Assembly (NCBI GenBank): GCA_001553355.1
Contig: KQ960876.1
Span: 1-64,000, forward strand
DNA length: 64,000 nt
Direction: 5' to 3'
Origin: Veillonellaceae bacterium DNF00626
Lineage (GTDB): Bacteria > Bacillota > Negativicutes > Veillonellales > Dialisteraceae
The notes under the pieces were generated by a model that was given only the letters and a program-made list of their open reading frames with translations, was not told the origin of the DNA and made no database searches. Of this stretch, positions 41,250-60,806 are shown one piece after another (position 1 is the stretch's first letter; every line of letters begins with the position of its first letter). A program made the position numbers and the translations under genes.

Positions 41250-41317
41250 ATAAAACTCCTATAAAAATTCATATCTCATTATAGCACACTGATTCAGCAT
41301 TCCTTATTTTATACAAA

Positions 41318-41366
41318 AATTGGCTTTTAGATATTGAATTTCTTCAACAGCCAAAAGCCAATTTTT
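41318..41366. terminator. Terminator after class IV aminotransferase gene
   Basis: AAAATTGGCTTTT pairs with AAAAGCCAATTTT across a loop of about 20 nt, with T-runs on both sides. It separates the etf operon from ruvC. Confidence 0.8.
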
Positions 41367-41375
41367 TATTTATTA

Positions 41376-42254
41376 TTACGGCAATCCATCTTTCAATAAA
41401 TGTGTATAATGTTCTTGAATTTTCTTTGTTACTTCACCAACTTGCCCCGTTCCTATAGATTTACCGTCAATAGATAGCACCGGAATAATACCATCTTGTG
41501 TATTAGTTAAAAATACCTCTTCGCTGTTCATCATATCCTCTAATCGTACAGGCTCTGATGAGTCATCAATCGAAGTAACACCGGCACTAGGAGCGACTCG
41601 TGTGAGTATAAGAGAACGTGTTACACCACGAACCATATACTCATTAAGTGGTGGCGTCCATATAACTCCCGCTTTCACTACGCACACATTTGAATGTGAT
41701 GATTCGGTAACCAAACCATCTTTGATAAAAATAGTATCATAAGCATCTTGTTTTTCGGCTTCTGCTCGAGCCATTAAATTTTGTAATTGATTCAAACTCA
41801 AGATATCTGAATGATGTCCTCGATCATCAATGGCGGTAATACAAGACACTCCATTTTGCACTTTTTCTATTTCTTCTAAATTAATAGGCTTTGCATATAC
41901 CAAAACATTTGGTTCTAAAGCATTTCTACGTGGAATAGTAAAGGCATGATCGCCACTTCCACGAGTAACAATAATTTTTACATATCCCTCTTTTACTTCT
42001 GATTCCTCTATCACTACTTCTACAATTTCTGTAAATTCATCCGGCGCTGTTACCGGTCGTATCCCTAAAAGCCTCATGGAACGATATAAGCGGTCCACAT
42101 GATAAGACAATGCAAATGGCCGTCCATGATAAATACGTACCCACTCATAAGCACCATCGCCAAATTGCAATCCTCGATCATCAGCACTGATTATCTTGGA
42201 AAAGTCATAATAAAAATTATGATTAAAATAAATAGTCGGTTTATAATTGTCCAT
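41376..42254 (-). CDS. D-amino-acid transaminase-like protein lacking the PLP lysine
   Basis: A class IV aminotransferase-fold protein of 292 residues. The N-terminal DRGLQFGDGAYEWVRIYHG, the substrate-loop LYRSMRLLGI, and the glutamate in LVTESSHSNV (Glu184, the residue that contacts the PLP ring nitrogen) match D-alanine aminotransferase, branched-chain aminotransferase and PabC. In the stretch aligned with the Schiff-base lysine (IKSLNLL in D-alanine aminotransferase, LKHLNRL in PabC) this protein reads ILSLNQL, so the lysine is Leu152. It should not be a normal transaminase. ATG 42254 behind AAGGTGAC is the start. It follows etfA by 58 bases. Confidence 0.85.
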   Translation of the reverse strand: MDNYKPTIYFNHNFYYDFSKIISADDRGLQFGDGAYEWVRIYHGRPFALSYHVDRLYRSMRLLGIRPVTAPDEFTEIVEVVIEESEVKEGYVKIIVTRGSGDHAFTIPRRNALEPNVLVYAKPINLEEIEKVQNGVSCITAIDDRGHHSDILSLNQLQNLMARAEAEKQDAYDTIFIKDGLVTESSHSNVCVVKAGVIWTPPLNEYMVRGVTRSLILTRVAPSAGVTSIDDSSEPVRLEDMMNSEEVFLTNTQDGIIPVLSIDGKSIGTGQVGEVTKKIQEHYTHLLKDGLP

Positions 42255-42312
42255 TTTTGTCACCTTCCCGAATAAATTGAATGATTCTTTATTATTGTTA
42301 TTGATTTTCTTA

Positions 42313-43317
42313 TTATTCTTTTTCTTTTAGAGCTTTTAATTTTTCAATAAACATCGGAATAAATTTACGCAAATCTGCCACAATAGCATAGTCAGCTAAT
42401 TTCATAATGGGCGCTTCCGGGTCTTTATTCACGGCAATCAGTATATCCGGTTTGACTGCGCACATATGTTGCATGGCGCCGGAAATACCTAAAGCCATAT
42501 ACACTTTGGGAGAAACACCTTTCCCCGTTTGTCCAATTTGATGTGTAAATGGCTCAAATCCCATCACAGACATCGGTCGACTACATCCCACTGCTGCCCC
42601 CATAAGATGAGCTAATTCATGAAGCTGCGCCCATTCTGCTTTTGTATGAAATCCTCGGCCACCGGCTAATATAAGTTCAGCATTTTCTAACGGACAATCA
42701 TCTTCTGCACGTAATACTTCTTTTAGAATGGTACCTAAATCATTCATATCAAGTGAAATTGTTACCGGAATAATAGACCCTTTTCGAGATAGATCCTTTT
42801 TAGGTGCATGAAAAATCCCGGGACGAACGGTACCCATTTGTGGTCGATAATCAGGACTAATAATATCTGCCATAATATTTCCGCCCATAGCCGGTCTTGT
42901 CCATACAATCAATTTTGTTTCTTCATCAATTGATAAACCGGTTACATCTGCAGTTACTCCGCAAACCAACTCGCCTGCTAAACGTGGAGCTAAATCTCTA
43001 CCATAGGAATCAGCACCAAATAAAACAACATTTGGCTTTTTTTCTTTAAAAAATTGGCCCAAGGCTTTTTGATAAGCCACCCCATCATAATGAGAAAGAA
43101 TAGGTGAATCAATAGTATATACCATGTCTGCGCCTAAATAAATTAGCTCTTGTGCCATATCTTCTAAATGATGTCCGGCAATAACAGCTGCTACCTTTTC
43201 ACCTAATTGAGATGCTAATTTTTGTGCCTGTCCAATTAATTCTGCGCTTACTTTTACTAATTGACCATTCTTTGGAATTGCTACAACGTAAATCCCTTGA
43301 TAATCAGAAAAATTCAT
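42313..43317 (-). CDS. etfA: Electron transfer flavoprotein alpha subunit
   Basis: A 334-residue ETF alpha subunit. The C-terminal FAD domain shows AGGRGFHTKAEW, GCSRPMSVMGFEP, HQIGQTGKGVSPKVYMA, GISGAMQHMCAV and INKDPEAPI-like AVNKDPEAPIMKLADYA. With EtfB it carries electrons between acyl-CoA dehydrogenases or other flavoenzymes and their acceptors, and in anaerobes often takes part in bifurcation. No dehydrogenase gene is adjacent, so the partner is unknown. GGAGG precedes the start. Confidence 0.95.
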   Translation of the reverse strand: MNFSDYQGIYVVAIPKNGQLVKVSAELIGQAQKLASQLGEKVAAVIAGHHLEDMAQELIYLGADMVYTIDSPILSHYDGVAYQKALGQFFKEKKPNVVLFGADSYGRDLAPRLAGELVCGVTADVTGLSIDEETKLIVWTRPAMGGNIMADIISPDYRPQMGTVRPGIFHAPKKDLSRKGSIIPVTISLDMNDLGTILKEVLRAEDDCPLENAELILAGGRGFHTKAEWAQLHELAHLMGAAVGCSRPMSVMGFEPFTHQIGQTGKGVSPKVYMALGISGAMQHMCAVKPDILIAVNKDPEAPIMKLADYAIVADLRKFIPMFIEKLKALKEKE

Positions 43318-43326
43318 AATTACCTC

Positions 43327-44118
43327 CTACACCAATGAAAGCTTTTTTACTATTTCATAAACCATATCAACCATCTCTTCCATCGGTTTATTTTCCACAT
43401 GCAAATTTTCTTTTTTGAATGCTGCAACAGGACCCACGTTTTTAACCTGAGTTGGCGATCCCTTAAATCCCACTCGATTCAAATCTATGTCCATATCATT
43501 AGACGTAATTTTCACAATTTCTTTATCTTTTTTCTCTAAAATCCCTTTAATGGATGGATATCTCGGTTTATTTAATTCTGCCAATGCCGTAACCACTGCC
43601 GGTAATTTCAATTCTAATGTTTCTACATCATCACCGGACTTTCTTTTTACCATTAAAAATCCTTCTTTTGCGTACTTCATCTCTGATACAGCACTGACAT
43701 CAGCCATCCCCAAAGTAGCTGCTATTTCCGGCCCAATTTGTGCCGTATTACTATCAATAGATTCTATACCGCAAAAAATAATGTCAGGTATTCCTATCTT
43801 TTTAATAGCTTCTGATAGTGTATAGCTTGTAGCTAATGTATCAGCTCCGCCAAATACTCGATCCGTTACTAAATAAGCTTTATCCGCTCCGCGAGAAAGA
43901 GCATCATATAAGACAGCTTCTGCCTGTGGCGGTCCCATAGTAATAACTTCTACAGATCCACCCACTTGTTCTCTTAATTTCAAAGCAGCTTCCAATGCAT
44001 TCAAATCCACCGGATTAGTTATACTATTTGCATTATTTCTTTTTAACCGACCCGTTTCCAAATCCACTTCGGTTTTTGCTGCATCAACTACCTGTTTAAT
44101 ACATACGAGAAATTTCAT
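43327..44118 (-). CDS. etfB: Electron transfer flavoprotein beta subunit
   Basis: A 263-residue ETF beta subunit with the opening MKFLVCIKQVVDAAKTEVD and NSITNPVDLNALEAALKL, followed by VEVITMGPPQAEAVLYDAL and ADKAYLVTD, FGGADTLATSYTLSEAI, and GIESIDSNTAQIGPEIA. In bifurcating ETFs this subunit holds a second FAD; the sequence does not settle which type this is. The nine-base gap to etfA marks a two-gene unit. Confidence 0.95.
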   Translation of the reverse strand: MKFLVCIKQVVDAAKTEVDLETGRLKRNNANSITNPVDLNALEAALKLREQVGGSVEVITMGPPQAEAVLYDALSRGADKAYLVTDRVFGGADTLATSYTLSEAIKKIGIPDIIFCGIESIDSNTAQIGPEIAATLGMADVSAVSEMKYAKEGFLMVKRKSGDDVETLELKLPAVVTALAELNKPRYPSIKGILEKKDKEIVKITSNDMDIDLNRVGFKGSPTQVKNVGPVAAFKKENLHVENKPMEEMVDMVYEIVKKLSLV

Positions 44119-59705: not shown

Positions 59706-60806
59706 TCATTCACCGATAAATACTCGGGGAATTCGCTTCCATGTACAAAGAATTTCATAAGAAATAGTCCCTGCTGCTTCTGCTACTTCATCGGCAGACA
59801 ACTCTATATTTCCTTGCTTCCCTACCAATACAGCTTCATCTCCCGGCTTTACCGTTTCATCTACTGCCACCATGAATTGATCCATGCAAATTCTACCGAC
59901 AATAGGACAACGTTTTCCCCCAATCAATACACACCCTTTATTCGATAAAGCGCGAGGATAACCATCAGCGTATCCTAAAGGAATAGTTGCTGTACGCATA
60001 TCTTTTTCTGCCACAAAAGAAGCTCCATATCCGACAAATTCGCCTTTTTTCAAATCCTGCACATGAGTTACATGTGTTACCACAGACATAACACTTTCTA
60101 CATCTAATGAATGGGTCATATCTTGCGACGGTGGCAACCCGTACATGATGATTCCCGGTCTTACTAAATTATGCCAACTGTTGGGAATATCAAGTATCCC
60201 CGCACTATTAGCAGCAGAAATAACAAAATCGTCAGTAATATTCATATAAGACAATGCATGCTCAAAAACTTGCAACTGCTTTTGCGCTATATCTTTATCT
60301 TTGAAATCCGCCGTGGCCATATGTGTAAATGTTCCACGAATATGGATGTGCGGACACTTCTTTAATTTTTCCAATAATCGCGGTACTTCATCGGGATGCG
60401 CTCCAATTCGATTCATTCCGCTATCAATAGCAATCATTACTTCTGCCATCTTCCGTTCTGAAATCGCTGCCGCTTCAATAGCTTCAATATCCACGGTTAA
60501 ATCCACGGGCAAAATTAAATCGGAATCAACTCCCATTAATATTTCATGCGGCAATGGTAAACCCAATACATAAATTGGACAATTAAACCCAAAACGACGT
60601 AATTCTCGCCCTTCAGTAACACGCGATACCGCTGCGCCTTCATAGCCTTCTTTCAAAGCCACCTGTAAACACTCTTTCACGCCATGCCCATAGGCATTAG
60701 CTTTCACTACGGCTAAAAGTCCGGCTTCTCCTTTAATGTAATTACGTATTTTCCGTACATTACGCCGAAAAGCATTCAAATCAATTTTTATATACGATAC
60801 CGCCAT
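59706..60806 (-). CDS. alr: Alanine racemase
   Basis: A 366-residue fold-type III PLP enzyme giving D-alanine for peptidoglycan. The PLP lysine is Lys35 in AVVKANAYGHG; the second catalytic residue is Tyr260 in FVGYGASF. IDSGMNRIG and VGRICMDQFMV, the usual substrate and lysine-carbamate region, are present. It supplies Ddl (25452-26387). It would also feed a D-amino-acid aminotransferase, which makes the lysine-less homologue at 41376 notable. Confidence 0.96.
   Translation of the reverse strand: MAVSYIKIDLNAFRRNVRKIRNYIKGEAGLLAVVKANAYGHGVKECLQVALKEGYEGAAVSRVTEGRELRRFGFNCPIYVLGLPLPHEILMGVDSDLILPVDLTVDIEAIEAAAISERKMAEVMIAIDSGMNRIGAHPDEVPRLLEKLKKCPHIHIRGTFTHMATADFKDKDIAQKQLQVFEHALSYMNITDDFVISAANSAGILDIPNSWHNLVRPGIIMYGLPPSQDMTHSLDVESVMSVVTHVTHVQDLKKGEFVGYGASFVAEKDMRTATIPLGYADGYPRALSNKGCVLIGGKRCPIVGRICMDQFMVAVDETVKPGDEAVLVGKQGNIELSADEVAEAAGTISYEILCTWKRIPRVFIGE

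Follow-up and report, generated by a model that had tools for sequence, protein, structure and literature searches.

Among described proteins, the closest to the one reported here is the D-amino acid transaminase (D-AAT) of Bacillus sp. YM-1 (PDB ID 1daa; curated model TIGR01121). The two share their fold, their length, the glutamate Glu177, the PLP phosphate cup, Tyr31, and a vertical line of orthology to the lysine-type D-AATs; our protein differs in that it lacks the Schiff-base lysine (Lys145), lacks R98 and H100, and scores below the TIGR01121 cut-off. PabC (1et0, 2y4r) belongs to the same Pfam family, has the same fold and relies on the same lysine, but it is less similar to our protein than D-AAT is (69 to 76 versus 165 bits in phmmer), and our gene, unlike the PabC setting, lies outside a folate operon. 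Such enzymes are defined by their PLP lysine. Lysine-less homologs are already known in fold type I, where the ColD-type dehydratases have His in place of Lys and work with bound PMP, and so show that a PLP fold can function without the lysine; their replacement is His, whereas here it is Leu, which is incapable of an acid/base role, and the fold is a different one. LCB1/SPTLC1 of serine palmitoyltransferase, also of fold type I, is a PLP-enzyme homolog retained without the PLP lysine (PMC3794620). It forms a heterodimer with an active paralog, an arrangement that we rejected here since no second class IV (PF01063) protein was found in the genome, of which our gene is thus the only class IV member. 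On lysine-less proteins of class IV, or of fold type IV, there was nothing relevant in the literature searched, most subscription papers being outside its coverage.

The window, the whole stretch of DNA that was analyzed, comprises 64,000 nucleotides of contig KQ960876.1 from Veillonellaceae bacterium DNF00626, and its features of interest are listed in Table 1. The open reading frame is intact, running on the minus strand from an ATG at 42254 to a stop at 41376-41378; an in-frame GTG at 42263 falls within the ribosome-binding-site-like GGAAGGTG. The 292-residue product covers Pfam Aminotran_4 (PF01063) from end to end (149.5 bits, positions 1-223 of 223), and its top PDB sequence match is the Bacillus D-AAT (1daa/3lqs; E = 2.1e-47, 165 bits). 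An AlphaFold model of the protein (pLDDT 86, pTM 0.84) has the same enzyme as its nearest PDB fold (Foldseek E = 3e-33, TM 0.85-0.90; 0.85/0.89 for 1daa). The curated D-AAT model TIGR01121, with a cut-off of 277 bits, gives 218 bits for the window protein; the two Leu-type proteins scored reach 218 and 235 bits, and three lysine-type relatives reach 278, 282, and 332. Scores also fall below the cut-offs of the PabC models TIGR03461 (115 versus 177 bits) and NF005800 (132 versus 308 bits) and of the IlvE model TIGR01122 (143 versus 246 bits). The gene at 41376-42254 is a vertical ortholog of a normal D-amino acid transaminase.

Table 1. Coordinates of the aminotransferase-like gene, of its codons of interest, and of other features of the window
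Feature	Position	Strand	Basis or remark
Class IV aminotransferase homolog (D-AAT ortholog without the PLP lysine), 292 aa	41376..42254	-	Profile, sequence, and fold matches
Codon TTG, Leu152 in place of Schiff-base Lys145 of D-AAT	41799..41801	-	Alignment to 1daa
His103 in place of Arg98 (substrate carboxylate trap)	41946..41948	-	Alignment
Phe105 in place of His100 (substrate carboxylate trap)	41940..41942	-	H100 gone in all four lysine-less lineages
Trp38 in place of Val33 (substrate pocket)	42141..42143	-	Fixed in the Dialister family
Lys93 in place of Tyr88	41976..41978	-	Genus Dialister only; V/I/M in sister genera
Arg55 = R50, PLP phosphate ligand, retained	42090..42092	-	Alignment
Glu184 = E177, PLP ring nitrogen ligand, retained	41703..41705	-	Alignment
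His187 at the Ser180 position, next to PLP	41694..41696	-	Lys in L009, deepest branch of the family
etfA	42313..43317	-	58 bases upstream of the aminotransferase gene, same strand
etfB	43327..44118	-	Upstream of etfA
Terminator-like hairpin	41315..41366	-	Directly 3' of the gene; -26 kcal/mol, z -6.5; near-symmetrical, then T run
Alanine racemase	59715..60794	-	TIGR00492, 339 bits

In an ungapped alignment, HSDILSLNQL of the window protein matches RCDIKSLNLL of 1daa, which places Leu152 opposite Lys145. The TTG codon is two base changes from AAA/AAG. Leu occupies this position in all nine Dialister-family orthologs found, among them the Dialister succinatiphilus YIT 11850 record (L032), and it is encoded by four synonymous codons (TTG, CTT, CTC, and CTG) across independent assemblies; the amino acid has therefore been held while its codon turned over. 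Given the independent assemblies, the different codons, and the two base changes needed, we rejected a sequencing or assembly error as scarcely conceivable. All orthologs read from the sister families f2 and f4, the latter Veillonella-like, have Lys; family f3, which we take to be Megasphaera-like, is without a close ortholog for comparison. In a tree computed with the Lys column removed from the alignment, the Leu clade, supported at 100/100, is sister to the lysine-type f2. The original prediction had described a class IV aminotransferase homolog with Leu at the Schiff-base position, an intact PLP-ring glutamate and lysine in the relatives, and had proposed an alignment of orthologs to see whether the Leu is fixed; on each of these points the results agree with it. 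Its corollary, that no internal aldimine would form at the usual place, is likewise to be expected from Leu152.

Relative to 131 lysine-type sequences, the Dialister family also departs at near-invariant positions that the original prediction had missed: V33→Trp, Y88→Lys/Val/Ile/Met, R98→His, H100→Phe, and L149→Gln/Met (Lys at 88 and Gln at 149 in the window protein). Position 98 is His in eight of the nine members, Arg being retained in the deepest branch (L009), and position 100 is Phe in all. Tyr31, Arg50, Glu177, Ser181, Asn182, Gly203, Thr205, and Arg206 are retained, with Thr or Ser at 241; the PLP phosphate cup, which in window numbering consists of Arg55, Gly210, Thr212, and Thr/Ser252, is kept across the family. 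The canonical D-AAT binds the substrate carboxylate in a trap made of Y31 and the cross-subunit R98 and H100 (PMC10003956), of which only Tyr36 is left in the window protein. Trap loss alone does not exclude a D-AAT, since non-canonical D-AATs without it have been described (PMC10003956). The PLP pocket is thus largely in place, with its covalent anchor and its substrate anchor gone, and it is predicted to be more hydrophobic by virtue of Trp38, Phe105, and Leu152. The claim that the fold retains all its main features therefore stands for the fold itself and the phosphate cup and fails for the substrate site. For the Dialister family, changed positions were not significantly enriched in an active site listed beforehand when Lys145 was set aside (p = 0.08 and 0.25), and so the argument rests on the named residues; for family f5, introduced below, the same test gave p = 1e-5.

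When the class was sampled with 60 further sequences, added and aligned, three more lysine-less lineages came to light: family f5, a branch of family f24, and the single sequence L117. We infer, and do no more than infer, that f5 is Acidaminococcaceae-like and f24 Selenomonadaceae-like. The lysine site is Asn in 11 of 11 f5 sequences (L097, L106, L110, L112, L116, L118, and L120-L124), Ala, Asn, Gly, or Pro in the f24 branch (L087, L088, L103, L107, L113, and L126), and Arg in L117; all four lineages have lost H100 as well. The tree requires four state changes, forced by well-supported branches, and a topology that unites the lysine-less sequences in one clade is rejected (p-AU = 5e-8). At least four independent losses of Lys have taken place in the class. 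Outside it, Lys is present in every one of the 68 relatives read from a sample of the phylum, a count that omits L148 and L149, two rows of this class. Together, the fixed Leu and the repeated lysine losses point to a non-standard role.

The f5 protein, for which a structure model predicts that the D-AAT fold persists, is heavily reshaped (R50→Asn/Lys/Ser, G203→Asn/Ser/Thr, T241→Pro, and H100→Leu). With its phosphate cup also lost and several residues newly fixed, it is a second, more thoroughly remodeled lysine-less protein. Judging from the substitutions at R50, G203, and T241, a descendant without the lysine can evidently do without the cup too.

The Dialister family is under strong purifying selection, as the lysine enzymes are. 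The dN/dS ratio is 0.03-0.13 for genus Dialister pairs with measurable dS and 0.03-0.06 for pairs in genus g4, compared to 0.01-0.17 for lysine-type Veillonella-like pairs; these family values come from other pairs, those with the window gene being saturated at silent sites. The catalytic residue is thus absent while the family is under purifying selection, the combination by which a pseudoenzyme is recognized. Nine of 12 Dialister-family genomes carry the gene, with no internal stop in any copy. It is missing from G001, G006, and G009, and its function is therefore dispensable; in G001 the absence is clean, between etfA and ruvC.

The genome also encodes a homolog of glutamate racemase (MurI-like; 130 bits, below the curated cut-off), and its alanine racemase is predicted to make D-alanine without D-AAT, so that D-AAT activity would be dispensable in Dialister. 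The original prediction, in stressing that the gene is not in a wall operon, overlooked that it is an ortholog of D-AAT, whose wall role is redundant beside this racemase. No alanine racemase C-terminal domain was found in any of four f2 genomes (G012, G015, G018, and G021; 95-99% complete). D-AAT is probably the main D-alanine source in f2 and may be the sole one in these four, and f2, without the racemase, retains the lysine in its D-AAT. Veillonella-like genomes have alanine racemase and a lysine-type D-AAT together; redundancy thus permits lysine loss but does not force it.

The gene order in the Dialister family is dnaE-etfB-etfA-aminotransferase gene-ruvCAB. Lysine-type f2 genomes have dnaE-etfBA-pyk-D-AAT (with a peroxiredoxin-like gene before D-AAT in one), and in f5 and other families dnaE, etf, pyk, and D-AAT are also near one another; in the Veillonella-like f4 the gene adjoins genes that, by their sequence, resemble a methionine-type ABC importer. 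Because the etf linkage is old and common to the lysine-type orthologs, it is poor evidence of function, and we set it aside as ancestral synteny. The predicted etf operon location holds locally, as etfB, etfA, and the gene followed by the strong hairpin, but says little for a new function. An automated terminator scan (loops of 3-8, no internal mismatch) passed over this hairpin, which folding revealed. In many Negativicutes, with D-AAT of the lysine or the lysine-less type, a membrane protein of about 170 residues is encoded next to D-AAT or close by (L128:8593-9084, L129:8571-9074, L142:4640-5149, L140:4850-5398, and L049:5812-6324). One of four scanned copies has a weak match to the ECF S-component family (PF12822, 23 bits, below the cut-off), and the protein is a possible transport partner of the D-AAT-type protein; none of the Dialister-family genomes searched yielded it.

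On balance, we lean toward the window protein being a transaminase-dead descendant of D-AAT, a pseudoenzyme under selection that binds PLP, PMP, or a similar ligand non-covalently in a binding or regulatory role. In the ancestor of the Dialister family, the Schiff-base lysine would have given way to Leu; along with it the carboxylate-binding residues supplied by the other subunit would have been lost (R98→His in most members, H100→Phe in all), and the pocket would have gained the hydrophobic Trp38, Phe105, and Leu152. Alanine racemase and the glutamate racemase homolog would have made the old activity dispensable, with the protein still retained by purifying selection; this retention suggests a function that has no need for ordinary transamination. 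Because the phosphate cup and Glu184 are retained, the likeliest mechanism would be one in which a catalytically inactive dimer holds PLP, PMP, or a phosphorylated ligand like them without a covalent bond and acts as a ligand-binding or regulatory protein. We infer each of these elements, namely, the loss of transaminase activity, the dimer, the non-covalent binding, and the role; PLP binding by the Leu-type protein, in particular, is predicted from the retained residues.

The natural series of lysine, Leu, Asn, Ala/Asn/Gly/Pro, and Arg, several members of which sit in recognizably the same inherited gene neighborhood, makes the lysine-free class IV fold directly testable. Since lysine-less genes could easily be annotated or modeled as D-alanine transaminases, metabolic reconstructions of gut Negativicutes may credit an activity that is impossible.

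The main rival to a catalytically dead protein is a lysine-independent enzyme that holds PLP or PMP non-covalently, uses His187 beside the PLP or His103 of the other subunit as the acid/base, as ColD uses its His, and catalyzes a novel reaction whose substrate is more hydrophobic. The retained cup and Glu184 suit such an enzyme, as does a pocket that is remodeled and not randomized, and position 187 is His in eight of the nine family members (Lys in the ninth), with position 103 His in eight of nine. Yet His187 is not a specific replacement, being found in lysine-type enzymes too (e.g., L167 and L194), L009, the deepest branch, has Arg at position 103, and the neighborhood offers no pathway partner; we regard this reading as unlikely. 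The use of another lysine, which the original prediction had allowed for, is disfavored further. Tyr88 of D-AAT is contributed by the neighboring subunit, and Lys93, which takes its position, could replace Lys145 and leave the protein a transaminase; it is fixed in genus Dialister and is found in 0 of 131 lysine-type enzymes. However, the sister genera that share Leu152 have Val, Ile, or Met there, no new active-site lysine common to the Dialister family was found, and the carboxylate trap is lost as well, all of which makes a surrogate lysine very improbable.

We give just as little credence to a decaying remnant, an enzyme redundant beside alanine racemase and on its way out. The presence of Alr, the absence of the gene from 3 of 12 family genomes, and the drift of the f24 lysine site among Ala, Asn, Gly, and Pro would fit decay, but the frame is uninterrupted wherever the gene is present in the family, dN/dS is low (about 0.03-0.13), and Leu itself has been conserved through synonymous codon turnover. 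An older origin of the role has slightly more to recommend it: the D-AAT of the class may have served in another capacity as well, one that needs no lysine (structural, regulatory, or in an interaction), so that lineages repeatedly dropped the lysine yet kept the protein. This reading overlaps the pseudoenzyme explanation and differs in that the role is old and shared. It accords with at least four losses in the class versus none among the 68 relatives read outside it, with the strong constraint afterward, and with the weakly ECF S-component-like membrane protein near the gene in lysine-, Asn-, and Arg-type genomes. That protein was not seen in the Dialister-family genomes searched, however, and the pocket has been remodeled differently in each lineage, which suggests different fates and not one shared role; a common ancestral role is thus rather improbable. 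More broadly, and only tentatively, D-AAT may have turned at least four times into selected lysine-less proteins, which would either carry out a new reaction with non-covalent PLP or PMP or serve an ancestral lysine-free function. If so, theirs would be, within the literature searched, the first case in fold type IV of a lysine-less branch maintained by selection.

In L133, L134, and L135, noted along with the f24 branch, the D-AAT-type gene is followed by one read as an oxaloacetate/pyruvate carboxylase-type subunit. In G001, a small genome of the same genus as the window, the match to ruvC is broken up and contains two TAA codons (L062; G001:C1:18000-18478).
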